NCBI RefSeq assembly: GCF_026151205.1
Contig: NC_087080.1
Span: 10,217,837-10,277,836, forward strand
Origin: Bolinopsis microptera
Lineage: Eukaryota; Ctenophora; Tentaculata; Lobata; Bolinopsidae
Direction: 5' to 3'
Length of the DNA: 60,000 nucleotides
Notes under the pieces: generated by a model
What the model was told of the DNA's origin: nothing
Database searches by the model: none
Seen by the model: only the letters and a program-made list of their open reading frames with translations
Shown here: positions 15,481 to 56,292 of the stretch, in pieces
How positions within the stretch are numbered: the stretch's first letter is position 1
Layout: every line of letters starts with the position of its first letter
Translations under genes and position numbers: made by a program

Positions 15481-15640
15481 TGTAAAACCCTCTGGTGTCG
15501 AGATTACTCCATCAGATCCCAAATTCGGATCCACTACTGTTAAGGAGACCCGCATCCAGTAGGGACTGTCAGCGGTAAGCTACAGCTCCTGCTGGTAATC
15601 GACTCGGAAAACAGTGGTGGTCCCCGTTTTTGGGTTGGAA

Positions 15641-18600: not shown

Positions 18601-18829
18601 TGGTGGAATGGGTGGTGAAGCTGAGAGACTGGTCAAGAAACTGGCCAGTAAGATGGAGTACCACACTGGCCAGAGGTACTCAGACGCTGTAGGATACATC
18701 AGAAAGCGCCTTCGCTTTGAAATCCTTAGAACAACAGTGATATCTCTCCGTGGAGACAGAGGTGCGAGAAAAAACATTGTTGATATAAACAGTCTAGATC
18801 TTAACTTGGAGCCACAAGGCCAAGGGTAA
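15641..18829 (+). CDS. Non-LTR retrotransposon polyprotein: PHD finger, reverse transcriptase, restriction-like endonuclease
   Basis: Intact ORF of 1062 residues from the ATG at 15641; the frame is open back to 15614, but that first codon is GTG. Residues about 49-99 form a PHD-type Cys4-His-Cys3 zinc finger (CPIC, CERC, WHHRTC, CTRC). The reverse transcriptase core follows: a finger motif with KPGVRPVGIGEVLRR (about 400), motif A VDAENAFN (about 468), motif B EGTTQGDPP (about 520) and catalytic YADD (about 555). A C-x-C...H...C knuckle lies at about 845-866. The C-terminus matches a restriction-like endonuclease (ARLDIS, FFDVRVF, EKKRCYN, LEVEKG; about 914-975), the layout of R2/R4/NeSL-class LINEs that nick target DNA and prime reverse transcription from it. 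The N-terminal PHD finger in place of the usual C2H2/Myb target-recognition domains is distinctive. No frameshift or stop interrupts it, so the copy is young and perhaps active. The 5' UTR may begin near 15485 and the 3' UTR end near 18960; I could not fix either end and saw no clear target duplication. Confidence 0.9.
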   Translation: MMKTRSKSVENKNTDSSRLTYPDQCTDPEETNKTVSQAIKDLRTLTETCPICDLKVTEYDDGLLCERCHSWHHRTCLKISKTEYKKLSESDDEYLCTRCIKTTSKDADTVVEEAKECCFPDHENVSDPSRLKLGPWNSWEVLTKCEEIYGVIVKWRRNIFLLPSGAAGKAFIEEMTKVANNFTSGSAMESVTMTLLMIMPSLLLQKPSKRSKAKEHTEVLKRRLVLWQAGKLEELLREGQEIQRRLGKGKHKHGHVERVFTRLMMKGKVSAAMRWIGENATGILEPTPDVIKVLKEKHPKASPASKGSCLSGPAKRVEPVIFDSIDGESIRQAAKRVQGAAGPSGMDADAWMRLLCSKQFGKKCEDLCNAIAGIARKLCVRNLDPSLLTSLTACRLVPLDKKPGVRPVGIGEVLRRIIGKTVMTLLQKDLVGATAPIQVCAGLQGGVEAAVHAARDCFEDPETEAIILVDAENAFNLLNREAALNNMNIVCPEVATYIMNTYRMPARLFMAGGDEHLFSEEGTTQGDPPAMGFYACGTIPLIDAGNIERKVTQIWYADDSAAGGKLEEIRKWWDNLCIKGPLFGYNPKSSKTWVIVKPEHEEKARTLFPDVNVTSIGRRYLGSFIGTDQGKEAFIEEKVQEWCRDLKQLSDIASREPQIAYSAYMYGLSKRWNYVCRTTRGVADWLTPLEQVTRDEFIPAIINRLFSCTDELRNIMALPPRYGGLGIPVMMEMADREYNFSCKATKPLKEAILKQIDNYTEDWRHSKEVKTEITTERNLFYRQKQAEICQELESTPLAKLMFQLAAEKGASAWLTALPLKEYGYLMNKQQFSDAIALRYNLNLKDCPKTCTCGQKYSANHALICKLGGYVSLRHNSLRDTFAELMRTVKCKDVQTEPVLLPVDGLELPKGTVLGDQARLDISARSIWNASERAFFDVRVFHAPAPSNASKSIPAMYLSHENEKKRCYNARVLEVEKGSFTPLVFSTSGGMGGEAERLVKKLASKMEYHTGQRYSDAVGYIRKRLRFEILRTTVISLRGDRGARKNIVDINSLDLNLEPQGQG

Positions 18830-34005: not shown

Positions 34006-34123
34006 GGATACGGCCATACTCGGTTGAATACACCCCATCTCGTTCGATCTGGGAAGTTAAGCAACTGCAGGCCGGGTTAGTACTTGGATGGGTGACCGCC
34101 TGGGAATTCCCGGTGCCGTATCC
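34006..34123 (+). rRNA. 5S ribosomal RNA
   Basis: About 118 nt with the conserved 5S landmarks in order: a 5' ACGGCCATAC, a central AAGTTAAGC, and TTAGTACTTGGATGGGTGAC (loop E and C-box region of the TFIIIA/Pol III internal promoter) followed by CCGCCTGGGAA. The ends GGATACGGC and GCCGTATCC pair perfectly as helix I. A T5 run at 34124-34128 is a Pol III terminator. Helix III/loop B bases differ from vertebrate 5S, but pairing appears kept. It stands alone here, not in a tandem 5S array, so it may be functional or a recent dispersed copy. Confidence 0.92.
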
Positions 34124-34668
34124 TTTTTGAGTAATTCTAGTGAACTGATCATATTTATTACCTTTCAAGAAATTCCATCCTTGATTGTTCAAAATCTAGA
34201 CTCATGAAAACGCATTGCGGTTTGATGGTAGGCTTTGATGTGGGAATGAATGAATTTGTAAATATACATCAAAACTCAATCATAGATCATTTCAATGATA
34301 AAATTACTCCAAAAGATGCATTAACATATATAATATTTGAATAATTGTCAAATATTTACAAATCATCAAAGAACATCAGAAACAACTAAAATTTAAAAAA
34401 GCGATCTGTAATGGAATATTCGAATAATCTTCCTTATCTTTTTTCCTCTTAAAAATCTTCAATAATGAGTGTTACTTCATTATCTTTTCGCCTAACAGCT
34501 ATCAATTGTATTATTAAATGATGTTTAGGTAGACGTTTTAGTAGCCTCAGTCGTGACTTTCACCCTATATCAGAATTATTCTGCCGATCAACATCAATTA
34601 TATTGCTACTATACTGACCACAAACCATTACAAAATGAACATGTTATAAAACCACAGAAAACACACTT

Positions 34669-37600
34669 CTATATCTCTTCCGAGTTAACTTCTTCAAGTT
34701 CGGCACGGCACCTCTTTGATTCTAAATAAACCTGCAATAATGCAATTAAGAAAATAAGTATGAAAGTAAGATGATATTAAAACTAAAATGGAATGTTTGT
34801 TTCTGTGATCATGGTGGGATTTTCTTCGTTTGGTATCCTTCCTTTTAAAGTTTTTTAAAAAGCATACACGACAAATCAGTCGAATTTCTAGTTTGCAACC
34901 AATCAATTTACGGAGAATCATAAATACAAATTACATCAGTATTGGGTGATGTTTTGTTATATATAAGTATAACAAAACATCACCTAATAGTCAATATTAA
35001 TATTTGTACCGAAATATTCACCAACCTGGCGTGATAGAACAGAAGCAGCGACAAACATGGACACTGCTACAAGGAGGAAGACCAGTCCCCAGCCATATGT
35101 AGTCCACTGTAGAATAATAGCTCCAGAGAGAGGTCCGAATATTGCTCCCACCGAACCAAAGCCGTCTATTATACCTGGTTAAATGTAGATTGTAGCTGTT
35201 GTCGGTGGAAATGGTGAAAATATTAAAAGTGTTTGATTATTTAAGGTGGGTACTGGGTGTTAAAACTTAGAACTGGGAATTTGATAATGGTAATAGAGAA
35301 ACGATAAATTTAAAAGTAATTTAGAAGAATAAAAAACGCATCCTCACCCGTAGCCATGCCGACAAGTTTCTCATTTCTCCCAGTTTGCATTCTATTAATA
35401 GCGGACGGCATGCAAGCGCTAGCTAACGAGTACGGCCCGTTCTGTGTGATCCCCACACAAAGTAATATAACCAGGAAAATAACAAGTGAGGCTGTTGAGA
35501 GAGTGCTGTACCAGTAAAGGGAGAGAATGAATACTGAAGCTAGGGCGGCGAAGGCTGTGCTGAACACTCCATACAGTTCGGTCAGGTAAACCGCCAGTCC
35601 AATTAAAAGGGTACCTGCACAGTGAACGGTTACGATCAGTCAGATTGTGTGATTTGTTTAGTGTGAATAATTATTTAAACCCCGGATAGGCTGGGTTACC
35701 AGATTTATTTCGATATTTCCTTCCCACAGATAAGCTGTATCCATCATTCGGGAAGAGTTTCTCTCCTCAGACAAAGCTGAGGACAGTTTACTCGACTTAA
35801 AAGAATATTTAAGTCCGCGTTACTACATGATTAAAAATATATCCTCCTCCCCCCTTATACTGGAACCCCCCCCCCCCCCCCCCCCCCCCCTTATACTGGA
35901 ACCCCCCCCCCCCCTATTATACTTGAACCACCCCCCCTGGTATACTGGACCCCCCGCCCCCCCCCCCCCCCCCTATTGTACTGTAACCCCCCCCCCCCCC
36001 CCCCTATTGTACTGAACCCACCTACACACCCTCCGAGACCCCAGACAGCAGTAAACCAGCAGGATAACACGTAAGATATCTGTACACCCTGCAGAGTGAG
36101 GGACTCGAACCACGTGGGGATCCAATAGTAGAGCACATACACACCTGTAGTAGAGCACGTGTCAGTACTCGTGTATTTAAACTATGTTCAGACTTCAGTG
36201 GAAAAATACGTAAGACAGGCATGTTTTGTAATATTCTGGAGAGGGCTTTGATAGAGAATCTTCTGATTGGTTTCGATTAGTTTTACAGAGACCTGTATTT
36301 GGTATGAATTAATAAAATACTCACTTAGTTTTACAAAGAAGAGATGAATTGCATATTCTATGATCCCTGGCAATCTAAGTGCTTCCAACAAGGTTTCTTT
36401 GTTCCCCAGATTCTCTGGGAAAAGTTTTCAATCAAGTTGAAATAAAAATGTTTACTAAAAAGCCATGTTGAAATATTTTAATTCTGGTAATATAGTACAG
36501 TCAAATCCGTCCTAATTTAAGCCTTTGTCGGACAAAATTCGCAACAAAGCGATTTTAACGGGATATGGTCGGGACAGGTCCCAGGAATCATTCCAGAGAG
36601 TTCCCAAAATCCTCGACTTCAGGAAAATCCACAATTACCACTTTTTTACCACCTTTTTACCACTTTGGTTTTCTGCAAATAAGTCACGTTCTGAATATCC
36701 TAGAAGATTCTAGTTTAAAGCATTGTGTTTAGAAAACAAAGAAGAACAACTTTTCCTTTAACAACTTTTTCAAAAATAAATTATTTAATTAATAAATTAA
36801 ATAATTAATAAAATTTCAAATATTTCAAAAATATATTTTCATAAAAAATGTTCACAATTGCATTCCACGTGCAATGAACTAATTTTTATAAAAATTTTCA
36901 CTTTCAATATTTTGGACTTGTAAAATTTTCGAAATTCGTAAAGAATAACCACTATTTATCACTTTTTACCACATTGAATCTCCGCTAATAAAACGACTTC
37001 TGAATGTCGTCGAAGGTTCTAGATTGAACCAATGTGTTCAAAATATAAAAGAGAACAACTTTTTATCTGACAACCTTTGGATTAGATAATTAATTGATTT
37101 ATTAATTAAATAATAATTAAATTTTTAAAAATTTCAAAATATACTTTTTATCAAAAATATTTGCCGTGACGTAAAATGAATTTACTTGAATAACAGAACA
37201 TACACCGTCACATAGATTAGATAACAGATTTAAAAAATTCAGATAAATGGAATAAACGGTAAAATATCAAAATTTGTACGATACTATTATAGCTTATTTA
37301 TAAATATTTACACATCATATCTCTCGACTTACAGAAACATCAACTGGATTAGACCACAGAACTGCCTCTCTGCAAATCAAAACATCTGCAAAACGATGTG
37401 CGAAACGGATTGAAAATGACGAAGTTATCAAGCAATTTGTTTATCTCGTTAGCGAAATTGATTGGGTTATCAATGATTACCTAATTGCTTATCACGTGAC
37501 AGGGTGCTAGGATACCGTAATTGGGCTTTCTGCACGATTTCTGTGCCACGCTTTCACTGGATCAGACACCACCAGTCGGATCCACGGAGTTGGTAAGGAT

Positions 37601-40600
37601 CGGCTATTCAGAACGATTCCGATAGTGGGAATCTAGTGCACTAAGCTACGGAGAAAGTCACGAGAAATTTTTGGGCGAGCGAATTAGGAACTTAGTAAGA
37701 GCCTAACGTATGTGTACTATACCACCTCCCCCCTCCCCCGCACAATAATTTACCCTGTCTGTAATCCGGTTTGAGGATTTATCATTTAGTGCGATCTCTA
37801 CGTTACAGAATGGACATTTGTTTAAACTGTGTTCGCGGACTAAAGATGGTCCTGTCTCAGTTACAACGAACTCCTCTTCATTGGCCGATATAATAGTTAA
37901 CAGCACTATGTTTACAGTATGCACTGAAGGGGTATCCTAGTTGCTTGAACTTTTAACAGGTGCCCCGCCTCATTTAAACCTCAATTAAGTTTCCTATCAT
38001 TCGGTTGAGTCGACCGTTGAGATCCCTTAGATCCAATGGATCCTTAGCTACTCCCTAGACTAGGTGACACTGGGATTCGAACCCTGAACCTCTGCGCAGA
38101 AGGCGGATGCTCTAACCGCTAGGCTAGATATGAATCTTTGGAACTGGTCTATGGTCACTGTCTGCAATAATACACACAAGACGTCACTCAGAGCTGAATC
38201 AGTCATGCCGTTGTACTGCCGTTTAATTTCGTTCAGTGACCAGGGGTTGTTGATCCAACCTGTGGTGCGTTGATTTCTTTATTTATACAAGGTATGAGAG
38301 GCGTCAGGATAAAGAATAGGACTGTACGTATCCGTTTCAAATTTGCTGGGCATAGTTTAAAAGTTAGTGCACTTACTTAAAAGATAAATAGTTTAAATAG
38401 TACCTGAGGACAGCAACCCTTTCCATATTTCATTCCGTGCAAATTTACATTGTCGATCATTCGCCCTCTTAAAGCTATTCACCGAAACTAACTCCTCATT
38501 TGCCTGGTAAATTAAAACATTGTATTGGTTAAGAATAGCTGATTTCATAAAAATCGAGATCACTAGATGAAGCAAGACTTTCAGTTCTTGAACAGAAGTC
38601 GCAATCTTCAACAGCAGACATCAAGTGCGAACAGCTCCCGCCAACATTCTTATCGTGTTTACCATCAGCAGCAGGTGTGGGATGAGAATGACCTAGATCC
38701 GATAAGCTGGGATGGAAGATGAACAATGGGACACATGTACCAGTGACCACTCTTATGAGTACAGCTCCGAAAAAGCTCATTCAAAAAATCAGTTGCAAAT
38801 GTTTAAAGTCAGGTTGTGGCAATGCTTGTTCATGCAGAAAAGCAGGAATACATTGTGGATCAACCTGCCTCAAATGTCAGGACAATTGCAGCAATGTGCC
38901 AGCTGAGGACTCATAAGTTAGACTGTTATCTAGTATATATATGGTTATATAAAGTACTACTTCGATTTCCCGATTAATTTAATGGAAATTTGTTAATTAT
39001 TCGTGATATGTAATTTTAAAATATTTTGATCAAAAATAATTTTTATAATTTTTGGATATTTGTTTAATAATCGAATTAACTAATTAATTAATTATCTAAT
39101 CCAAAGGTTGTCAGATAAAACTTTGTTCTCTTTATATTTTGAACACATTGGTTCAATCTAGAACCTTCTACGATATTCAGAAGTCGTTTTTTTAGCGGAG
39201 ATTCAATGTGGTAAAAAGTGGTAAATAGTGGTTTTTCTTCTCAAATTTCGTAAATTTTACAAGTTCAAAATATTGTTAGTGAAAATTTTCAAAATTTTCA
39301 TAGAAATTAGTTCAATATTCGTGGAATGTAATTGTGAACATTTTTCATGAAAATGTATTTTTGAAATATTTTAAAATTTATTAATTATTTAATTAATTAA
39401 ATAAATAATTTATTTTTGAAAACGTTGTTAAAGAAAAAGTTGTTCTTCTTTGTTTTCTTAACACAATGCTTTAAACTAGAATCTTCTAGGATATTCAGAA
39501 CGTGACTTATTTGCGGAAAACCAAAGTGGTAAAAAGGTGGTAAAAAAGTGGTAACTGTGGATTTTCCTGAAGTCGAGGATTTTGGGAACTCTCTGGAATG
39601 AATCCTGGGACCTGTCCCGACCATATCCCGTTAAAATCGCTTTGTTGCGAATTTTGTCCGACAAAAAGACGGATTTGACTGTACTAATAGGGGCTATTGT
39701 GATATTTTATCAAACTAAAGTAGACTTAGTTCAAGGATCTAGCTTGTGGTTAAACTATGATAACGGGTACAGTACTGCCCTCCTAAAACATGTTCCATAT
39801 ATTATATTTTGTATTCTCACCCTGCTGCCTTGTTTCAGACGTTTGTCCATCAGTCTGAATTATTGGAGCTGTGCCATCCTGGGGTTCTTTAACGTTCTCG
39901 GCCTCATTTGTAGAGCTAACATCTTTCTGATCTTTATTTGCTAATATCGGTGTCGTTTCTAAGGTGTCACCAAATAAAGGTGTTATCAATTAACACTCAA
40001 AATATGCCGTTTTGGAATTAAGATTGTTTCAAAGGTTCATTTTTAAGTTTGACTTCAAAAGACGATATACAATCAGCAAGATACGACTGGTTCGATCAAA
40101 TTGAAACAATGGACAGATATATAGAAAGTTTATATCAAGTCCCTCAAAACAGAAGGTGTGATCGAAAACAATGAAATTTTCAAACCATCCACAAGAGGTG
40201 CTGAGTTGGGCGGGAGGCTGGGTAAGAGGAACATATCCAACACTCCGATAGCTATTAGTACCAGACCACACAGAATAAAACATGTTCCCCATTTGTCAGA
40301 GAAAGATACGCTGAGACTTGATATCACACACCCTATGATTATCCCTGAAATAAAATCATCACGTTATAAATCACGTGATAATAGTCCTGCAATAAAATTT
40401 GTCTGCATGAATATGATTTTTATGATAAATCGTCGATTGATCTCTTCTTTTTTGATTGATTCTCTTTGATTGATCTCTTTTTTTCGATTGATCTCTTCTG
40501 ATGATATATTTCACTGGGTCTCGTAATTTTTGTATGATTTTTTTGTGACGCAACAGATTGACATGGTTTTACTGTTAAATAACAAAATTACTGATAAAAA

Positions 40601-43600
40601 ACAAATAGTGCACACTGCAAATGTATAAATGAAAGCGTTCAGATTTCACACACTTCTCAACGCAAATGTTCTTCATAAATGTTCAAAAGTTTGGCCAAAG
40701 AAATATTGTCAAGCGAAAACCTTTCTTGAATCGGGCTGATAATAAGCTTGCACTGCGATTCAACAGAATACAAATCCCAATAACTCAGCAGATCAGATGG
40801 AAATTCTTTCCACTTATCGGATACCTGAGACGAATTCTTAAAAACATTCAAAGGAGGATCTTGTGTTTTAACGACTGTTTCATTGGCAAGTTTTCCTGAA
40901 GAAATGTTTGTTAAATGTTGCCTAATTTCACTTGAAAGATGCTCTCCAACAAAATCATAAATCCGTTCCGCAGTCCGGTGAGGTGACAAACTCATCTCCC
41001 TGTGGGAAATCCTCAAGTAACGTTCCTTCCACCACGGATCCTTTTCAATAAAATCAATGGACCTGAGTGTTTCGTAGCAGTAGTTGTAAGTCTCCCACGC
41101 TGCCTTGATTCTCTGATCAGGTATATTGTTCCTGCCCCACTCCACTGCTGTACGCTCGTTCCACATAAAGAACTCTAACCCTACTCTCCTTGATAGCATC
41201 ACTGGAAAAGGATGTCTCACCAGGTGTACTATCTTAACATTAGCCGTTTTAATACGAGCTATCTTCGTGATATCTGACAGGTCTCTCAATCGTATGACCT
41301 TCATGGCAACAACTTTCCGGAACTTGCAAATCTCCTGATGTGAGAACCCCTCTTTCAGCAGCTGGACATCACACTCGGTTGTGTTGAACCTGTGTCGGTG
41401 CTCCTCGGGGGTTCCACAATACTCGTACTGTTCTCCTAAAACAGCAGTAGGATATACACTACAGTTGGACATTATTTGTTGCAGATATAACATCCTAAGA
41501 TCCGATACAGTGTGATCGGGACGGGCCCCGACTAGAGCTCCCTGTTTATACAGCTCTGTCAGTCCCCACTCGTGAAACGGTTCGAAGAGATATTGTATTT
41601 TTGGGTTATGGTCAAATGTCTGACCTACGAATGTTGAGCCGCTCCTGAAAGATGCCACTAAAAGGACGAACTTTTTTTCGGGGTTCAAGTCCAGAGTGAA
41701 GGCTGGATCACCAATCCCGACACTTTGAGGACCCGTATAGAATTGTTTGGTTATTCTGTCTAAGCCAGGAATTGCCACGTATGCGACCAAAAGGCAACAA
41801 GTTAAAAAGAAATAGAGTAAAGCAAGCAGAGTCCATTGAAACCTCGACAACAGCATTATTTTCTGAAAGCAGAAAGAATGATTTTGGGACAACAAAACTT
41901 GATTTCGAGATATTACAGATGAATGAGTTGTTATTATTTTAATTGTACTAATTATACTTAATGTAAATAAAAATGATGTACTGTACAGAACTATAATACA
42001 CTAAAAAGTCACCATGTTTATAAAATAAAGTCGCTAACGACATCACAAAAACACGTTATCATGAGGTGTGTATTACAGATTTACACGGTAAATCACTGCA
42101 AACCGTTATTAGTCTATAAGTTTTACAGACTAATAACAGTTTGCGATTCTGGATTTTTTCCGGTACCGGTAAACGGCCGTCATAAACATTCTACAATGCA
42201 GGTATTACTATTGAGCTTCTCATCATCGATACGCAAATGACTGGAAATTTGCAATGAAACTTGACATCTTGCTAACCAAAACAGAATTATCTTTGCGTGT
42301 GCCACGAAACCAACTCAAACCGAACAAAGTTAAGCTATTATGGATACATCCATCAGCTTGATAAAACAAAAGGTTCAACCTAATAACAAAATATTCACCA
42401 GTCTCATGAGAATAAAGCAATGGGGAGGCAGTACACAAGTGACGTAACACTAACGAAGAGCCCGCAGACCCAGCTATGCGGGGGCGCCATCAGAAGGGGG
42501 CGCTTTTTTCCGAATTTGAGGTGTTTTGTTTGAGGTCAACTTAACGTTTGATCGACAAATGGTAACGTTACACCACTGTATTTATCATAGATTTTCGTTC
42601 ACCTAAAATAACTAATTGAAGCAGGTACGATTTAGATGCGGCGGATGCGGAATCGCATGATTCTCCGAATATTTCATGGATCGTTGTGTAATTGTGCAAT
42701 AAATTAAGAGAAGATTCGGGATCGTTTATAAATTCGTGATATTTTGCCTATCTAAATGGTGCATTTGCCTCTTAGCATAATCCAATTAATAGGCTATCGG
42801 CTGGTCAATCATGGTCTGTTAACAATGTTTATGAAATATTGAGTAGACACTAATTGGTATCGAATAGAATTGTGATACTACATGTTTACTGTATGTTTTA
42901 AAACATTTGATCGAAACTGCTTTGAATATCATTCTGTGCTGTTTCAGTTTAAAAATGAAATACTCGCGCTACATTCCCCCTTACCTAAAAACTTGCAACT
43001 CCCGAAAGCAGTCATAATGAAATCCCTGGCTACCTCGTGACAGAAGTAGTGATCTAGCATCTTTATCAGGGTGGGATATCCAAACGCTTCAGCGAATCCA
43101 TTCAGCATCCTGAAGACGAGGAAATACCTGAAATTGTGAACTTTGTTAACCGTGATTCTTGTCCTACTGGAAATACTTAGTTGTAGTTTTACGAGGAATC
43201 TTCAAATTATGATTGGATCAAACACGAATTCGGACTGTTTTTTATTGATCGATTATATTCATGTTAGTGTTACGATTCTAAATGATGATTTAGCTTACCA
43301 ATAGTTGTGGACGTTCCAATAGTTGGCCATTCCGTAGAAAATGGTCGTGATTCCGGCAGCAAAACATCCAATTATTAAAACATGCTTACAGTTGAACTTT
43401 TCACATAAGTAGCCCACGATGAAGATCCCAATTGCATAAGTTGCTGAAAATATACAGTATTTTCAATTTTGTAGGATACTTAGCCGAAAAACATAATGTT
43501 TACACAAATAATAATTAATAAATAATTCCTTTTGGCAATTATTTCGATCAATCTGTCTAAATAAATATATCTAGTTCAAATGATCCTAAAATTACATGTA

Positions 43601-46600
43601 CTAACCAAGACCGGCAGTGTCAAGAAGTCCGAGTAGCAACCAACCGTCAGGACCGTTGAAGGGAGCCCAGGTCTTGAGCAGGGTCATCTTAACCAGACTG
43701 TACGGTTCTCGTGACACATAGAACCCAAAGTAAGTGAAGAACGCCAGGGAGTACACTTGGACCTGGGGGAGGTCAGGTTTGTTTTCTGTTGTTATGTCAG
43801 TTTTCTGTCCTGTAGTTCGAAGGTGTGCTTATAGTTAGAAATATGTCCCTGTTGGTTCCACAGTTATTTGAGTTTGGTTATTATATATGTGGTTGATATT
43901 TATATATGGGGGGGGGTGTAACCCAAAAAAACCCAACTCCTACCCAAGAAAAGGTAATACTGGGATTGGGTTTTTTTGGGTTTTTTTGGGTTTTAAAAAC
44001 AAAATTTAATCAAAATTCTAGCTATTTCATTAATTGTATTGAATGTGAATTATTTCCCACTGAGTCTTACCTACGTGTTGTTCTCATGTCTTAACTTAAT
44101 AGATAGTTTACATAGTATATAAGTGTGTTTATATTGATAGTATGTTATCACGATAGCAAACAGGATGTCTCGTTCATCGAGATATAATCCATATGATTGC
44201 ACAAAGTGGAAATGTGCCAAATGTGGCAAATGTGTTCTCCTGTCATGGAAGGAGGCTATGACGAAGGTCAAGGGCAAGTCAAAGCACATGACTTAAATTA
44301 CTTGACTTAAGGCTGCTTCAGAGTCCGAGTCTCGATGATGTGTCTCCAAAGCTTTCTGTCCGCCGCGCCATAAGCTCCTTAATCTCCCCAGTGTTCTTGA
44401 GTCCAGTGTCACTTATTAGGTTATCGACGAAGGTGAGCGGTGGTCTACCCCTCCCTAGGTTCCCAAAGGAGAAGCTGGTGTGCTGCCAGGTCATCATGTC
44501 GCTGGATGTGCCCAGCCAACCTCATTCTTCTGGCCTGTATCTTCGAAATAACTCTTGGGAGTTATGTCCTCTCCAGTCCACGTTTAGGGCCATCTGAAGC
44601 ATTCTACTGTAACATCCGTCTATTCTTTTCTTCAAAGATTCTGTTATTGTCCACGTTTTCGTTCCATACAGGAAGATTGATTCAACCGTAGCTTGAACAG
44701 AGGGATCTTTAAATCTCGGCCTTGCGTAACCTAAAGTCGTGCTCCGTTGTACTAAAATCCTCACTTCCTCTAAGGCATGTCCGTCCTTAGAAATTATTGT
44801 GTGTGGCTCCTCTCCTACTAAATTAACTGTATGATGCTTGGTTTTAGACAAAAGAGATTTCCTGCCTCCTCATCAGATGAGGCTTCTGTAGGACTGTAGC
44901 ATGTGATGACAGTGAGCCTGGGCTTTCCATTGAAAGACATGGTGAGGATCCTTGCGCTGTAAGATTTTATAACTTTATAAGACTTATAGCCTCATATGCT
45001 GTCCTCGTCAAGATGATTCCTCGTCAAGATGATTCCTACTCTCCCATTAGAAGCGCCAGCTGCGTTTCTCCATGCAGATGAGATCACTGGATGAATCCCT
45101 TTGTTCATCTTTTCTATTCTGGTATTCTCAGCAATCAGCATGCACTACCCGATGTTCGATTCTTGCAGGGCAAGGATGTGCAGCTGCTTCGAGAAAATAG
45201 TTCTTCAAGTTCGATGCGTTTGTGCTGTTCTCTGACTGTTCTTATGTTAAACGTGCCAACCTGAGCAGCCCTTTTACATGATACAATGCAATTGATGTTC
45301 ATATTTTTTGATTTTTTCTTGTTTGACTTTCTGTAGAATTAGGTTGTCGTGTTGTAGAGACCGAGTCATCAGTTTCTGTAATAGCAGTGTAATTAGTAAT
45401 TAACCCGGCAACCACTTTCACTAGAAAAATAAGGGGCTTTAACCCTTGAGCTGTTGGTTAACTTCATCTTGACTTTTCAGTTCGCTCACAAGTCACAACC
45501 CTGTGCAGTCCCCTACACATTGGCAGTGGATTGTGTTCTTAACCCTTGCGCCACTAAAAGGTTAAGGGCATCCGCTTGAACAATAGCCATCTTCAACTCT
45601 CACCATAATATCTTGGGTATCTTGAGCATGTAATTGCACGAACATATGCTATACAAGACAAATGTGACACTTCCTTTTTCTACCCAACAGCATCAGTTGT
45701 AATCCTTACCCAATCGTCACCTGCTCCAGTGTGGGACTTTCCGATTTTATCCCAAAGCATAAGGAGGTTAGAGTGAGAACAGAGCTACACTTTAGCGGGG
45801 ACTAACCCTTCCCCTGACTACCTCGTTACCCGGTACCCCGGGCAATGGGCATAGGGAGCCGTATCCTGACTACCAGAGTGTGGTCCAGTCTAGCTGGGTC
45901 ATAGTAGACTAGGTTGAACAGGGTAACAGCCAACACCTCTTTAGCTACTGTGCAATCCACAGTAAAGATTTACGAGTCTCAAAGCCTCTTGTAGACCAAG
46001 AGTTAAGGAGTCAATAGATCAAATTATTGAACTTCCGGGGCTCAATGTCTCCCGTCGACCGTCCTGCCTTTAGCCTGGACCCCCTGTCCAGTATCCAGTC
46101 TTCACCACGCGGAGGTAGTGGCTTTCATCATGCTGTCAGATGAGTGTCTGGAAGAGGGCACCAGCAGGATACCCCTTTTCAAAGTTCTGGGAGCCTCACA
46201 TCAGACCAGGGCTTCCACCCAGCTTCTATCCAGCGGTGACGCCTTGGGCCACCTAAGCTTCACACAACCATTGAAAGACCACCTGCCTACTTGTAAAAAT
46301 TTTGATGATGCGATTATTACAGTCGAGGGTCTGATGCTGTACATTCTCAGTGTAACAGCTGACAACAGTTATCAACATTTTATGCCCTGGCTGTTTACAT
46401 CCGATGCCTGCGAGCAAACTTTATGCTTTCCTGCGCATAGGCCTCCAGGCAGGCATTAGAACTAATCTGTGTTCTAAGGATATGTTGGTTGGCATGGGCA
46501 AATCAAACCGTTCCCTCGAGCTTGATGCACTCGGCAAAAGTTTGATCCCTGTAACAGTTGCCCACTCTCGCAACAAGCTTGTTATACCGCATCCGAAAGC

Positions 46601-47517
46601 AGAGAAACTATTTAGAAGTAAAGATACTTGAATGCCAAGATTGTTACAAGCTATGAAGAAGGGAGTCTCAAGGGGTAGAGAACTCCTTCAAGAACACTGT
46701 AACTTTGAAGGAGAGGCTTTCCCACCATCTTCTGACGGAGCAGAGAGTGACGAAGCGGAAACAGATGATGAAGAAGAGGAAGTGGAGGATATTGACTAAT
46801 CAGAGGAATGGGCGACAATAGTAACTGTGTATGGTGATGCTCTGCATCATGATACGGCTGTTGAGGTTTGCCTCAATGGAGGGCGAGATCGAATGCCATC
46901 CCAGTCAAGATTTTAGCGACTCCAGGGCCATAAACAAGCGAAGATATCACTTAATATCACATACGTGATCATGCAGCTGATGGTAACTACAAGATTCTTT
47001 CAGTTGGAGATAGAGCACGGTTTCTCGTTAAGCGGATGATCAGGAAAACGGAAACAGAGATCGTGAAGGTGAGAAGAAAGGCTTTATTCCTCTCGTACCG
47101 GTTGCGGTCAGGGTTGGGGTTATCAATGAGTTGCGTCCCTACTAACTCAATTTGCCATGGCCATCGAAGTGAGCATTACATATGGCTGATATCATATCTG
47201 GATGGCCAACTTCTTCTGAGCACATCAGTGAATAAAATACTGCTTTTGGGTGATATTTAAGCGATTATATCTATTGTGATGTTGTAGTGATGAACCACAA
47301 AGTGATGTTGTACTGATAATTGTTTTGCTAGGTGCCTACATGATTTTATTTCCGTCAAATGAAAAATTTGTAAAAAACCCAAAAAAACCCAACTCCTACC
47401 CTGAAAAAGGTAATACTGGGATTGGGTTTTTTTGGGTTTTTTTGGGTTACACCCCCCCCCCCATATATGTGGTTGATATTTAGGTGATGTACTGACCTGT
47501 AGCGATCTTGTAACCAT
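34669..47517 (-). CDS. SLC37-family sugar-phosphate/phosphate exchanger (MFS), at least 11 coding exons
   Basis: Exons, read on the minus strand: 47517-47497, 43762-43606, 43443-43299, 43127-42985, 40344-40186, 39958-39821, 36414-36325, 36144-36022, 35614-35348, 35174-35026 and 34731-34669. All junctions are GT-AG and stay in frame, giving 484 residues, close to the SLC37 norm. Family landmarks appear in order: FYVSREPYSLVK in helix 1, LDTAGLATYAIGIF, GMANYWNVHNYWYF (compare the family GYFWNIHVLWYY), NGFAEAFGYP, an acidic cytosolic loop (exon 6), LRLPGIIEYAIHLFFVKL, ITQNGPYSL, and MATGIIDGFGSVGAIFGPL (family TAIIDGTGSIGAALGPLL). Members exchange glucose-6-phosphate or related phosphates for Pi across the ER membrane. 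The start is uncertain: the frame continues upstream of the ATG at 47517 to an AG at 47575, and an upstream 44-bp candidate exon (47676-47633) would join in frame across a 58-bp intron. Most introns are 160-410 bp; introns 1, 4 and 6 are enlarged by insertions. Confidence 0.9.
34945..34984. repeat. perfect 17-bp hairpin in the last SLC37 intron
   Basis: GGTGATGTTTTGTTATA at 34945-34961 is exactly complementary to 34968-34984, with a 6-nt loop. It may be a small foldback element or a structure in the intron RNA; I cannot tell which. Confidence 0.8.
35846..36014. repeat. poly-C minisatellite (poly-G in the SLC37 transcript)
   Basis: Five degenerate units of long C tracts (25, 13, 7, about 22 and 18 C) separated by TATACTGGAA-like linkers. 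It lies inside SLC37 intron 8. On the transcribed strand it is poly-G starting about 18 nt after the 5' splice site of the exon ending at 36022, and could form G-quadruplexes. Confidence 0.9.
38060..38131 (-). repeat. tRNA-derived segment (SINE head or tRNA pseudogene)
   Basis: The minus strand carries an A-box-like TAGCCTAGCGGTTAGAGC and a good B box (GGGTTCGAATCCC), with an anticodon-like arm whose loop would read TCT (Arg-like). The acceptor stem does not pair, so this is not a functional tRNA. It lies inside the long-TIR element. Confidence 0.5.
38698..38916 (+). pseudogene. relic of a mobile-element protein C-terminus with a Cys-rich CXC-like domain
   Basis: The frame opens after a TGA at 38689 and ends at 38914-38916. 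It encodes a segment with AP(x)KLIQKISCKC, CGNACSCRKAGIHC and STCLKCQDNCSN. The spacing (C-x-C, C-x3-C-x-C, C-x3-C-x2-C) resembles the tesmin/CXC-like Cys cluster found at the C-terminus of many uncharacterised invertebrate mobile-element proteins. The upstream protein is missing, so it reads as the 3' remnant of a captured or internally deleted coding region. It lies just inside the right arm of the long-TIR element. Confidence 0.5.
40433..40500. repeat. degenerate GATTGATCTCTTTT tandem repeat
   Basis: About four imperfect copies of a GATTGAT(C)TCTTTT unit, in SLC37 intron 4 between the sulfotransferase gene and the next SLC37 exon. Confidence 0.6.
40657..41856 (-). CDS. Golgi carbohydrate 6-O-sulfotransferase (CHST1/CHST3-like), nested in SLC37 intron 4
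   Basis: Single-exon coding region of 399 residues from the ATG at 41856. The frame continues to an ATG at 41895, but a pyrimidine-rich tract ending in CAG (41865-41863) makes a strong splice acceptor six bases before the chosen ATG, so I infer an upstream non-coding exon and take the inner start. A signal-anchor helix (about residues 7-29) gives type II Golgi topology. The 5'-phosphosulfate loop is RSGSTFVGQTF (about 71) and the 3'-phosphate motif is LVRHPFPVMLSRR (about 212-223), the two PAPS-binding sites of the family. Several N-glycosylation sequons are present (NCS, NTT, NIS, NET, NSS). Members transfer sulfate from PAPS to C6 of Gal, GalNAc or GlcNAc in keratan/chondroitin-type glycans; the exact acceptor cannot be told from sequence. 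It shares the strand of its host gene. Confidence 0.9.
   Translation of the reverse strand: MLLSRFQWTLLALLYFFLTCCLLVAYVAIPGLDRITKQFYTGPQSVGIGDPAFTLDLNPEKKFVLLVASFRSGSTFVGQTFDHNPKIQYLFEPFHEWGLTELYKQGALVGARPDHTVSDLRMLYLQQIMSNCSVYPTAVLGEQYEYCGTPEEHRHRFNTTECDVQLLKEGFSHQEICKFRKVVAMKVIRLRDLSDITKIARIKTANVKIVHLVRHPFPVMLSRRVGLEFFMWNERTAVEWGRNNIPDQRIKAAWETYNYCYETLRSIDFIEKDPWWKERYLRISHREMSLSPHRTAERIYDFVGEHLSSEIRQHLTNISSGKLANETVVKTQDPPLNVFKNSSQVSDKWKEFPSDLLSYWDLYSVESQCKLIISPIQERFSLDNISLAKLLNIYEEHLR
42098..42144. repeat. near-perfect 18-bp hairpin
   Basis: GCAAACCGTTATTAGTCT (42098-42115) pairs with 42127-42144 with one mismatch and an 11-nt loop. It lies upstream of the nested sulfotransferase in the same intron. 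Confidence 0.65.
42435..42579. mobile_element. diverged hAT-like MITE relic
   Basis: The interior CCCGCAGACCC...TGCGGGGGCGCC matches the hAT-type element at 33.15 kb, and the ends (CAAGTGACGTAAC and GTTACACCACTG) are decayed versions of its termini. No target duplication is recognisable. It lies in SLC37 intron 4. Confidence 0.5.
44300..45350 (-). pseudogene. internally deleted LINE relic: APE endonuclease fragments joined to the reverse transcriptase C-terminus
   Basis: Read on the minus strand, about 45290-44860 gives AP-endonuclease-like pieces (VGTFNIRTVREQHKR, LHILALQE, NGRVGIILTR, PRLTVITCYSPTE) with stops and frameshifts. From 44851 the frame passes directly to the far C-terminus of a RTE/CR1-type reverse transcriptase (ATVESIFLYGTKTWTITESL, DGCYSRMLQMALNVDWRGH, then MRLAGHIQRHDD and GRGRPPLTFVDNL). 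The catalytic RT core (the xxDD region) is missing, so the copy is dead. A 16-18-bp tandem duplication (CCTCGTCAAGATGATT) lies near 45015-45045. It is inside the composite insertion. Confidence 0.75.
46118..46797 (+). pseudogene. frameshifted coding relic with acidic C-terminus, unrecognised
   Basis: The frame 46118-46459 and the frame 46404-46631 join if one A is removed near 46415, where the text DACEQ continues as LYAFLRIGLQAG. After a TGA at 46629-46631 the same frame continues for 55 codons (MPRLLQAMKKGVSRGRELL...) to an acidic end, EEEEVEDID, before TAA at 46798. The continuity across one frameshift and one nonsense codon shows a decayed protein-coding sequence of at least 225 residues. 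I do not recognise the family; a mobile-element origin is likely because it sits inside the composite insertion. Confidence 0.55.
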
Positions 47518-50006: not shown

Positions 50007-50206
50007 ATATGGACACGTTCATTGAAGTTTGAGGATATTGGTAAATTTCTAAAATAGCGTTTTCGACGATAGTGGCTTAATTAATAATAAATAATTTTAG
50101 CATCAATCAATCTAGCGTGTTCATAAGTTCTGAACATTAGCCACGTGACCCATACTCCCATATTCACTGCTCAGAAATACAACTTGTTGCTTTTAGGTAC
50201 TGTAAT

Positions 50207-50240
50207 GTAAACAATGTCACATTTTTGTGACATTGTTTAC
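50207..50240. repeat. perfect 14-bp hairpin made of two facing motif copies
   Basis: GTAAACAATGTCAC (50207-50220) and its exact complement (50227-50240) flank ATTTTT. Each arm is one copy of the internal motif of the surrounding element. Confidence 0.85.
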
Positions 50241-50770
50241 CATAGCTGTCCAATTAGCATTTTTTGGTCTAAAATGTAGTAGATTAGGTCAATCTAACAA
50301 TTATGATACAACGTAGGCCTTAATCGCAGTGATCGAACGGCTTTAAGGCAATATTTCGTAAACCTTGTCACACTCAGAATACGAGACCCCTTTTCTACTG
50401 TGAGGTGTCCTCAAAACCCTTTCAACTCATTATTTAAGGGTTCTTCTGCCAATCATAGCCCTAAAATATATTGTTTTGAAAAGTTAGCACTTGGTTATTG
50501 GGAAATGATGTAAATTCTGTCACATTATGTGGAATTTGAAATTCTGGGTGAATTTCCGAAATCATTTATATCTGATTTTGGTTTGGAAGGCAGGCAAAAC
50601 TCCATATAAGGACGATACACGGATATAGTTGATTCAAGTATAGGGCAGTTGATGTAAAAATCGTCACAAAATGATACGACATCGTAAATAGGTTAAATTT
50701 GGAAAAAATGATTATATAATGAAATAGTCTGTGATTAACATATTACGTACATTATAAAATGGGCATGTGC

Positions 50771-52268
50771 TTTTATATTTCCTGTATCTCTGTATTAATC
50801 ATTTCAGACTATAATTAGGACTGTTCACGTGAAAGAAATTGTATCTAAATTTTACAATGACTTATGTGACGAAATTTACATTTCTTGACCCTATTTTGAA
50901 GAACCATACCTCGGTTAGAATTCAATGTTCTTCCAGGAATTATTGGTTGGTTATTGCTCATCAAATTAGAACTCAAGTTTAACAATGCTGAGTTTAATTT
51001 TACTAAGTTACTGAAATGTGACGAAATTCACTTTTCCTGCCCCAAAAGTATAATTTCAATGTGACGAAAAATTGGCATGGGTTTCTACATTTATTGTATA
51101 AATCCATTCCAACTATAATAAGGGGGAATAAGGACTGTTGATATGAAAGAAAATCTATCTAAATTTTAAAATGACGCATGTGACGAAATTTACATTTCTT
51201 GCCCCTATTTTGAAGAACTATACCTATTTATGAAAAACAACAGACTCTAATTTTGTTCACGATAATGATCGTAAATCAAAGAAGGGAGCAGATGCCTTAA
51301 ATGGATACAGTCTGGGCGAGAGTCATGAAAAGATAACCATCCGTTGAAATATCGTCCCTGAGTCTTAAACAAAGAACTTAAACTTAAAGAGAACTGAATT
51401 TTATTGAACTGGAAGTGGAGCAGCTATATAAGGACAGCTGTGCTCAATGCTCATCATATTTGGTCTCAACATTCCTCCTTATATGCTTACTTGTGTCAAA
51501 ATATATATATATATTATATATCTTTAGTCTCGTAGTTTAAGTGTATTTAAACTGTGCTACACTTCAGTCTGTTACTATGATCTGTGATAAATTTAAATTT
51601 GTAAATGTTCAAATAAAAGAAGGCCGTTCTAAATAAGAATTCCACTGTAGTTTGCTTGCATCAAGAATCAAGATACTTTGTCCTTACTAGCTTGCATCAA
51701 GATGTAACTTATAGTATGGTAGGTAAACTGTGCTACAGTCTACACTTCAGTATGTTACTATGATCTGTGATAAATTTAAATCAAATTAATTTATTTGGCT
51801 TTTATATTTCCTGTATCTCTGTATTAATCATTTCAGACTATAATTAGGACTGTCTACGTGAAAGAAATTGTATCTAAATTTTACAATGACGTATGTGACG
51901 AAATTTACATTTCTTGACCCTATTTTGAAGAACCGTACCTATTGGTTAGGATTCAATGTTCTTCCAGGAATTATTGGTTGGTTATTGTTTAGCAAATTAG
52001 AACTCAAGTTTAACAATGGCCGTATTTACAATGCTGAGTTTAATTTTACTAAGTTACTGAAATGTGACGAAATTCACTTTTCCTGCCCCAACAGTATAAT
52101 ATCAATGTGACGAAAAATTGGCATGGGCTTCTACATTTCTTGTATGAAATATGAATCCATTCCAATTATAATAAGGACTGTTGATATGAAAGAAAATCTA
52201 TCTAACTAATGCAATGGCTGATGTGACGAAATTTACATTTCTTGCCCCTATTTTGAAGAATAATACCT
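50771..52268. repeat. tandem duplication of a ~460-bp block, offset about 1029 bp
   Basis: The block 50771-51225 recurs at 51800-52268 with few substitutions and small indels, including the shared start TTTTATATTTCCTGTATCTC and end CTTGCCCCTATTTTGAAGAA. The intervening sequence also has a partial local duplication near 51552-51600 and 51728-51780. Confidence 0.85.
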
Positions 52269-53441
52269 CGATTAGGATATAATGTTACTTTATCACCATA
52301 CCTATGCATATGTCGATAAACTAGTTATTTTGCCAACAAATAGCAAATAAAGTTATAATATTTTTTTGTGATGAAATTTACAAATTTTTACCATGTTCAG
52401 GTGTTGAAATGTTAACATATCACTGCCATATAATAATTTATATGACCGGTGTGTGGTTGAAATATTGTTAATTGATCCATAGTACGTAATATAGGGTGTT
52501 TAAGTTGGTATACTAATATTTACTCAATTTCACACATGTTGAGATATCATACAAATGTATGTGACAAAGTTAAAGTTTACCTATTTCTGCCTTCTGTATT
52601 TGTATTTGCCTATAACAATGAAGTATGTGAACAATTCCAAACACATTCAGCTCACAAAATAATACTAGACTATTCGGCATTTCTTTTCAGGATGTCATTA
52701 AACATCCCTCATATAAATTTCTTAAATGTGTGACGGAGTTTACATGGTGCTACCATTTAACGAAAAAAGTCGCTAAATATGTAGATAATAGTCATATGCA
52801 ACTATCCTAAGAATTTGAAATTCGAAAATTTGGTCAAACACGGCAACAAGGGGTCCATATAAACTCTGTCACGTTTTAAAATGTGACAAAGTTTACAACT
52901 CACTGCCGGCCGCATTTAAGCGATATCTTATCGTCTAATAAAGATATCGTTGTGCGACAAAGTTTATCTAGAGGATGAAACGATTATCATAGGCATAGAG
53001 GGTTTATATAATTTCATAGTGTGACACATTTTACATATCTTCGTGGCATTCAGTAGGATCATAATATTTACCAATATTCTCAAACTTCATTGAACGTGTC
53101 CATATCAATTAAGTATCTTCATGAAAATAGTTATTTTGGAGGCCCGATATTATCCCCATATCGATGCAGCTGTAAAGAGTCGTCACTACTCATCACTACT
53201 CTTCACTCAATTCATGGTATCCGACCCAATGATATCGTCTTTATTAAAGACGAAATTTATTTGAACGGCCCAGCGGGTTCGAGGGACGATTTTTGACCGA
53301 GGCCGAGGACAGACGAGGACTCGGACGACCCCTGGAACGGCCCTTTTATTGAAACGTCCTAATAAAAGACACTGCGAACTTCTGGTTAAACTAGGCCATT
53401 GCGGTAGGTCTGTTTGGTCCCTCTCCTTTCTACTTTATATA

Positions 53442-54240
53442 CCTTACTCGGGATTATTATGACCGGGATAAAGTGGTGGGTTTAGGGTAATTTCGCCATA
53501 TTTTTCCCGAACCACATTTTCACCGGTCGTTAATAAACCCGCCTACTCAGCTTTTAGGGTTCCCAAGGGGTATGGGTGCTCATATTTTAAACGTTGTCTT
53601 ATATTCACTAAAGAAGACTATTGGGACACTTGTTGTAGGTTTTTCGACTTCATTTGGCTAAAATTGCAAAAAATTCACATTTTTGCCCAATTCTTGTCAT
53701 ATATCCTTATTGTCAAATTTGATTTAAATAGGCCAATTTTTAATTTCTTAGGTATTGACTATCTCTACATAATGAAATAGGACTCAAAGTAAAAGTAACA
53801 GTTAAATTAAAACTTAAATTAATTAAAACTGATGAAAGGGATGATCTAGATGAAGATAACGAAGATGATTACAACTTATTGGAGGACTAAACAGCTCTCC
53901 CTTTATCTTAATATCGATCTGGTTGTTACGCTTCAAATGTTAAAAATTATTTTCCATCTAGTTTGATTAACCACGAGTCATTATGTCTGTCTACTTTCAA
54001 CAATTATTGATAATTCGACTTGTTTCACAAGTTTTAGCAATGCGAAAATTTCTGCTTGCTTATCTCTAATAAGGAAATTTACATCTGAGACAAAATTTTT
54101 GAATCTAAAATTGAAAGGTTGGACACCGGTAAAATGGCGACCGGGAAAATGTGGTGGGTTTTGAGCAATTTCGCCATATTTTTCCCGAACCCTATTTTAA
54201 CCGGTCGTTAATAAACCCGTCGTAATAATCCCGAGTAAGG
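53442..54240. mobile_element. 799-bp TA-flanked MITE
   Basis: The termini are CCTTACTCGGGATTATTA and its exact complement, flanked by TA (53440-53441 and 54241-54242). Inside each end lies a roughly 70-bp module (GTGGTGGGTTT...AATTTCGCCATATTTTTCCC...CCGGTCGTTAATAAACCCG) in the same orientation at both ends (53470-53543 and 54152-54219). The middle has a short acidic reading frame ending at 53890 (DDLDEDNEDDYNLLED) that may be the tail of a lost coding region. No transposase is present. Confidence 0.75.
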
Positions 54241-54242
54241 TA

Positions 54243-55609: not shown

Positions 55610-55691
55610 CGACGAGGATGGGATTCGAACCCACGCGGGCATTGCCCAATGGATTAGCAGTCCATCGCCTTAACCACTCGGCCACCTCGTC
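55610..55691 (-). tRNA. tRNA-Ser (anticodon GCT)
   Basis: 82 nt on the minus strand. The acceptor stem GACGAGG/CCTCGTC pairs perfectly with discriminator G. The D arm carries TGGCCGAGTGGTTAAGG, the anticodon loop is CTGCTAA (GCT, decoding AGC/AGU), a long variable arm (TTGGGCAATGCCCGC region) is typical of type II serine tRNA, and the T arm has GGTTCGAATCC. No intron. It appears functional. Confidence 0.96.
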
Positions 55692-56219
55692 CTCTTGAAG
55701 TGTTGAATTGAACTGTATCAATATCATATTATATATAACGCTCTAATGCACAACAACTCTCCATGTGGATGCACTAAATGATGTCAATTTGTACTATGTA
55801 TGATGTATCAGTACATTAAGATACATTTACGGTGTTAACTTTCAAGTAAACATAAAACCATAAACCAGGTTATAAACACATTGAAATTTAACCCAACTTT
55901 TCTAGCCTAAACTTCACGGAAGTGATACAATTATGAACAGTTCTTAACAGTTTATCATCATGAGTTGTTGCTTTTAAAGGTTTATGTTGTAATCAATGCA
56001 GCTAATTGAACGAACGATAAAATATGGAGTCCCAGACTTCGAAGTTCATAACATATATATTTTCATAATATACGACATTTGATATGATCACTATATGGGA
56101 TTACATCATCACTTCTTGTACACATCACTTCTTGTACATTTCCTTACCTTGTATTGTGGAGATAAAATATTAATAATCTTCAATTTTCTAAATCTTGTGT
56201 AAACCAGAACACAAAAGTG

Positions 56220-56292
56220 AACCTCCGGCGGGACTCGAACCCACAATCCCCGGCTTAGGAGGCCGATGCCTTAGCCATTAGGCCACGGAGGC
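56220..56292 (-). tRNA. tRNA-Arg (anticodon CCT)
   Basis: 73 nt on the minus strand. The acceptor stem GCCTCCG/CGGAGGT pairs with one terminal G-U. The A box is TGGCCTAATGG, the anticodon loop CTCCTAA reads CCT (codon AGG), and the T arm is GTGGGTTCGAGTCCCGC. A T-run follows downstream as Pol III terminator. No intron. Confidence 0.96.

Follow-up and report, generated by a model that had tools for sequence, protein, structure and literature searches.

A transposon-like unit in Bolinopsis microptera, with ends best read as partial direct-orientation copies of one small foldback MITE

How could a mobile unit come to carry the same hairpin module, in the same orientation, at both of its ends? 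This question was raised by a unit of 3,555 bp (43908–47462) in Bolinopsis microptera, which starts with G9-TGT, finishes with ACA-C11, and lies in a stretch of 60,000 nucleotides that was analysed as a whole (the window). Its sequence is best read as that of a transposon-like unit, the ends of which would be partial direct-orientation copies of one small foldback MITE. The coordinates of its features, and of a second element with the same layout, are collected in Table 1.

Table 1. Positions of the features of the unit, its flanks, and the second element (positions are counted from the first letter of the window).
Feature	Position	Strand	Remark
Possible degenerate extra copy of 19-bp unit	43864–43882	+	12/19 identical
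19-bp unit ATATATGTGGTTGATATTT, first copy	43883–43901	+	exact repeat of 47463–47481
Candidate left TSD, ATATAT(G)	43902–43908	+	same as 47463–47469; 8/9 as 9-bp TSD
Terminal sequence of the unit			G tract, then TGTAACCCAAAAAAACCC
Left terminal sequence, G9-TGT	43908–43919	+	outside module; inverted copy at 47449–47462
Left foldback module, 73 bp	43920–43992	+	direct repeat of right; G-quadruplex motif at 43962
Interior	43993–47375		~3.4 kb, intact gene absent (six-frame reading)
Frameshifted coding relic, acidic tail	~46031–46800	+	six-frame reading
Right foldback module, 73 bp	47376–47448	+	same orientation as left; G-quadruplex motif at 47418
Right terminal sequence, ACA-C11	47449–47462	+	inverted counterpart of left end
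Candidate right TSD, ATATAT(G)	47463–47469	+	after C tract; opens second 19-bp unit (47463–47481)
Second element, same layout	53440–54242		27-nt inverted ends (25/27); unrelated to 43908–47462
Modules of second element, 81 bp	53461–53541 and 54139–54219		direct, 90%

Counting the AT flank, the outer ends form an inverted repeat of 36 nt (43901–43936 versus 47432–47467), in which 34 positions agree; the unit thus has the inverted terminal repeats of a class II (TIR) DNA transposon. The homopolymer G/C ends that had been proposed in an initial annotation were borne out as a G tract (n = 9, 43908–43916) and a C tract (n = 11, 47452–47462), and so were two foldback modules in direct orientation. 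The left and right modules are identical at 70 of 73 positions, and as the three differences are clustered, a single template for both is not required. Each module is a palindrome (arms of 17–21 nt, of the type AACCCAAAAAAACCC / GGGTTTTTTTGGGTT), and as single-stranded DNA, both hairpins outfolded 200 of 200 shuffles (z −3.6 and −4.5). The terminal regions can therefore fold back as those of Foldback elements do, whereas the long inverted TIRs with internal repeats of that class were not found, the modules of the unit being direct. A G-quadruplex motif was identified in each module, corresponding together to two of the seven listed for the window. The earlier description of the modules as telomere-like was given up, as each hairpin arm holds just three G3 runs and no array; the G-quadruplex motif was retained. 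With up to three mismatches, GGGTTTTTTTGGGTTTTTTTGGG was restricted to the two module sites in the 60 kb (none in 100 shuffles), and no further copy of the module core was found elsewhere in the window.

Were both modules whole MITEs, one would expect ACA plus a C tract just after the left module, and a G tract plus TGT just before the right. The left module in fact runs into TTAAAAACAAAATT, and AAATTTGTAAAA precedes the right module; each lacks its inner terminal piece (12–14 nt), and both stop at the palindrome edge. Inner edges of up to 60 nt, compared with each other and with the outer ends, scored no better than shuffles (fractions of 0.80, 0.32, 0.76, and 0.38 in the four comparisons, each being the share of shuffles scoring at least as well). 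For 20-nt inner edges against the matching outer ends, shuffles scored at least as well in fractions of 0.31 on the left and 0.12 on the right, the latter reflecting a faint resemblance of the right inner edge to the left outer end with TGT in common. At corresponding places on the two sides, the inner terminal pieces are thus either gone or beyond recognition. The anatomy of the features, the direct orientation, the absent inner ends, and the flank repeat are real. This agrees with the annotated pair of MITE copies each missing its inner end; the accompanying claim, that two separate MITEs were paired like a bacterial composite transposon, was not shown, since such a composite has two complete element copies at its ends and here both inner ends are missing.

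A 20-bp direct repeat (43883–43902 and 47463–47482) flanks the unit and is exact; in 2,000 Markov-generated pairs of 60-nt flanks, the longest common word averaged 5.8 nt and reached at most 11 nt. As the repeat is common to both sides, the unit must have arrived or grown as a single insertion rather than as two independent neighbours. The annotated duplication of 13–20 bp thus exists in the sequence, whereas its role as a target duplication is doubtful, because ATATAT(G) adjoins both tracts and the longer flank need not have been duplicated on insertion. Position 43908 can be either the last base of this TSD or the first G of the element, and of the 10 occurrences of ATATATG in the window, seven are away from the unit. 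Three readings fit the flanks. A target duplication of 19–20 bp may have been accompanied by an extra piece of 6–7 nt; the inverted ends may be lengthened by ATATAT and joined to a 13-bp duplication; or the unit may have inserted into the second copy of a prior 19-bp tandem dimer, giving a TSD of 6–7 bp. The last is the simpler reading and is preferred, as no coincidence at the junction is needed. It is also how an older local duplication, named beforehand as an objection to a target duplication, would look: the repeat can be read as a 19-bp duplication plus a short TSD, a reading that is unproved. The TSD would be 6–7 bp if exact or 9 bp with one mismatch, compared with a MULE range of 8–11 bp; the 9-bp alternative is possible and would fit a Mutator-like element.

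The 19 bp upstream of the repeat resemble the 19-bp unit at a level that was reached by 0.2% of the 19-mers of the window and by 0.4% of its adjacent 19-mer pairs. This segment was the best of ten adjacent 19-mers (five per side), the other nine matching at 4–8 of 19 positions. Together with ATATAT(G) at both tracts, this resemblance led us to rank a 20-bp TSD below a short one. That the 20-bp repeat is itself the TSD (19–20 bp, with 6–7 nt extra on the left), made by an unusual integrase or target-primed mechanism, is improbable. The exactness of the repeat speaks for it, as does the absence of a perfect 19-bp tandem dimer from the window, which gives a low prior to a pre-existing duplication. 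It would, however, make it a coincidence that the 20-mer opens with the same 7 nt that precede the G tract, and the likeness of the upstream 19 bp (12/19, albeit the best of ten examined) also counts against it.

On the minus strand of the interior (~45290–44290), characteristic motifs suggest a non-LTR retrotransposon relic that retains the endonuclease and a C-terminal portion but has lost what lay between them. The LINE relic of the initial annotation is thus suggested by these motifs, whereas its pieces gave no significant match in Pfam, PHROGs, or PDB. Two pattern matches to the RT-like relic were obtained in a viral contig collection, and neither was confirmed. The plus-strand relic was also without a significant match when its pieces were searched in libraries including Pfam and PDB, and a P-element-like reading of it, suggested by motifs, was rejected as unsupported by Pfam or PDB. 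No transposase match was obtained among the interior pieces given to Pfam, and a non-autonomous member would have none.

Relatives of the unit were searched for at several levels. With the low-complexity filter off, a blastn comparison of the interior with the remaining window DNA yielded three matches, all short and weak (best E 0.049), and the whole unit with the filter on yielded none at E 0.1. Three tblastn matches in the window (E 0.009–0.042), obtained with 102 six-frame pieces of the interior, were taken as chance, and there is no clear second copy of the interior in the 60 kb. DNA scans of the viral contig collection gave no match to the exact ends and core of the unit. The end pattern had three matches in a collection of genome contigs, and the one examined (L001) was a different hairpin. 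Four short weak matches were found in phage sequences (E 0.009 to 0.4).

The second element with direct modules has outer ends of TACCTTACTCGGG; the TA found at each outer edge may represent a TSD. At its inner edges, no residue of the outer ends was detectable (fractions of 0.74 and 0.98), and four further comparisons of its edges with shuffles gave fractions of 0.27 to 0.75. Its hairpins are weaker (z −1.9 and −1.5; equalled by 5 and 18 of 200 shuffles), and its direct copy reaches 13 bp past the hairpin on one side, which excludes a simple hairpin inversion there. Ten inverted-repeat rows were listed for the window, of which five belong to a long-arm element (36493–39686) and one to 50007–53105; the other four comprise one for each direct-module element and two that resemble chance pairs. 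The direct-module layout was thus present in two of four candidate elements of the window, a tiny sample. The element at 36493–39686 has inverted arms of ~680 nt (89%) and ends of TAGTACAGTCAAATCCGTC, which resemble MITE ends of the pogo/Tigger type. The 3.1-kb unit at 50007–53105 has 40-nt inverted ends (95%) and internal direct duplications, the longest being ~460–480 bp (88%).

The window also contains features apart from these elements. An open frame of 1,076 aa (15599–18829) matches a PHD finger at its N terminus (Pfam 4.4e-6) and, weakly, a reverse transcriptase (E 0.03, under the Pfam cut-off); it has the look of a non-LTR retrotransposon carrying a domain of the chromatin-reader type. 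On the minus strand, an open 447-aa frame (40657–42000) has a sulfotransferase domain (Pfam 2.5e-8) and no match at E 0.01 among PDB sequences. A C-tract minisatellite (35843–36030) consists of runs of up to 25 C between TTATACTGGAA-like units with periods of 24–36. A 5S rRNA gene (34006–34124; whole model covered, 109.7 bits) and genes for tRNA-Ser (55610–55691) and tRNA-Arg (56219–56292) were also identified.

For the origin of the unit, we tentatively favour, at somewhat less than an even chance, the repair of a single foldback MITE that broke or excised: over-extended synthesis would have copied it almost twice, and filler would have been joined in between. The ancestor would be a non-autonomous foldback TIR transposon of ~99 bp (G tract, TGT, 73-bp hairpin, ACA, and C tract), inserted at ATATAT(G) within a short 19-bp tandem duplication with a target duplication of 6–7 bp. 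After a later break or excision, repair synthesis from each flank may have proceeded from the outer end through the hairpin module and halted before the opposite homopolymer tract, and the hairpins and G-quadruplex motifs are plausible stalling points. Two incomplete MITE copies would result, necessarily in the same orientation, and they would have been joined via 3.4 kb of filler with retrotransposon-like and coding relics, as in gap filling of the Pack-TIR type. Along with the solitary MITE, its break, and the repair route, we infer the TSD and a capacity for movement; as both outer ends remain, the unit could in principle move, given a matching transposase elsewhere.

Repair of one MITE is supported by modules that are direct, 70/73 identical, and complete to the palindrome edge, both without the far terminal piece. 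It would also place both stops at the palindrome edge without any extra losses, and the unrelated second element repeats this layout, its inner ends likewise being undetectable. It is weakened by the overlap of the halves over most of the MITE, with breakpoints near its ends, and by a filler for which the 60-kb window offers no clear relative, whereas a bias to nearby sources has been reported for such fillers. The clustered differences between the modules and the faint likeness at the right inner edge also count against it, and neither a solo 99-bp copy nor an empty site nor a filler parent was seen in the 60 kb. If gap repair regularly yields this layout in small foldback elements, it would provide a simple sequence signature for DNA capture and would show how a minute MITE can grow into a kilobase-sized carrier, no composite transposition step being needed. 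It is doubtful that G-end foldback transposons are repeated capture devices, in which the G tract and the G-quadruplex hairpin halt repair at fixed points, every repair leaving two almost complete, directly oriented MITE copies around foreign DNA with both outer ends preserved. If they were, there would be a class of capture elements recognisable by outer ends that are inverted, modules that are direct, and inner ends that are missing, a signature present in two unrelated elements of the window.

The same anatomy could have arisen from two neighbouring MITE copies in direct orientation, comobilised by a transposase acting at the outermost ends and carrying the intervening DNA. The direct modules, the presence of the outer ends, and a flank repeat around the whole unit are all consistent with this, and pairs of Drosophila FB elements are comparable. 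A bacterial case, the TIME-COMPs, is described in the available part of PMC13367494. Such a composite, however, needs inner ends of 12 and 14 nt, and the two inner TSDs, to have been lost at matching positions, no significant residue of the inner ends was detectable, and the second element would require the identical double loss; we consider it unlikely, though worth weighing. No such losses are necessary if the inner terminal pieces never existed, that is, if the family intrinsically has G-tract/TGT ends and a subterminal module at each end, the direct orientation having come about by module inversion or end conversion. Solo MITEs, if any, would then come from recombination between the direct modules.

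A palindromic module with arms of 17–21 nt could support inversion, and Galileo is described as showing TIR expansion and exchange of sequence in the part of PMC3573991 that was available. The direct copy of the second element extends 13 bp outside the palindrome, beyond what module inversion can produce, although this touches the layout and not 43908–47462 directly, since the two elements are unrelated. Inversion of the palindromic module as the sole cause was therefore rejected for the second element, where the copy exceeds the palindrome, and is possible for the unit. No further copy of the unit is known, which also counts against an intrinsic structure, and we regard this origin, too, as unlikely. 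That there is no transposon at all, and chance or an assembly artefact produced the pattern, would suit a single copy whose searched pieces gave no recognised transposase; the in-register nesting of inverted ends of 36 nt, direct modules of 73 bp, and a flank repeat of 20 bp makes it scarcely credible.

TIME-COMPs resemble the unit in a cargo bounded by two miniature elements and differ in being bacterial and Tn3-derived, according to the accessible portion of PMC13367494. SaTars, which are microsatellite-targeted MULEs, share with it a non-autonomous nature, TA-rich repeats, and a TSD that is often hard to define; in the text available from PMC5907723, they are plant elements and form arrays of unrelated elements rather than duplicated modules in one element. 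Pineapple MITEs also target TA, as reported in the excerpt of PMC8449440 that was covered. Repeated folding ends and non-autonomous members are common to the unit and to Tm1, Tetris, and Galileo, which have composite TIRs with internal repeats and TSDs of 8–10 bp (Tm1 and Tetris) or 7 bp (Galileo). Their repeats sit in inverted TIRs, whereas the modules of the unit are direct, and G-tract ends are not reported for them in the parts of these papers that were covered (PMC3169594, PMC4079207, PMC3573991).

Pack-TIRs, including Ssk-FB4, hold DNA of non-transposon origin between the two parts of a single TIR element, and the unit has the same arrangement, although its interior is partly retrotransposon-like by its motifs. 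In the sections of PMC8277862 available, animal single-copy Pack-TIRs are proposed to arise mainly by gap filling, and many fillers derive from nearby sources. The two breakpoints lie at a short distance from each other (median 4.6% of the TE) and tend towards its interior, from which the authors favour breaks inside the TE over excision. Unlike in these Pack-TIRs, the halves of the unit overlap over the 73-bp module, and no nearby source of the filler was found in the window.

In the literature searched, which covered few subscription papers, the exact layout of inverted outer ends with direct modules was unreported. The closest analogue found is the MuTAnT group of Mutator-like elements of Medicago truncatula, with variable GGGG/CCCC ends (0–4), foldback TIRs, and TA-rich targets in the part of PMC4486113 that was covered. 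The unit shares the distal G/C stretch, the folding modules, and the TA-rich site, and MuTAnT elements are mostly short and non-autonomous; they differ in being from a plant, in a 9-nt TSD, and in modules that belong to the long TIRs rather than forming direct copies, and captured filler is unmentioned in that part. As GGGG/CCCC ends, TA-rich targets, and foldback TIRs coincide in MuTAnT (PMC4486113), the initial statement that the unit matches no superfamily was too strong. The MuTAnT TIR search mask given there (GGGGTTTGCTAGAACA) differs from the GGGGTGTAACCC of the unit, and membership in MuTAnT or the Mutator-like elements is not claimed because of this different terminal sequence and the lack of a recognised transposase. 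The finding can be considered a moderately unusual form of a process that is already known.
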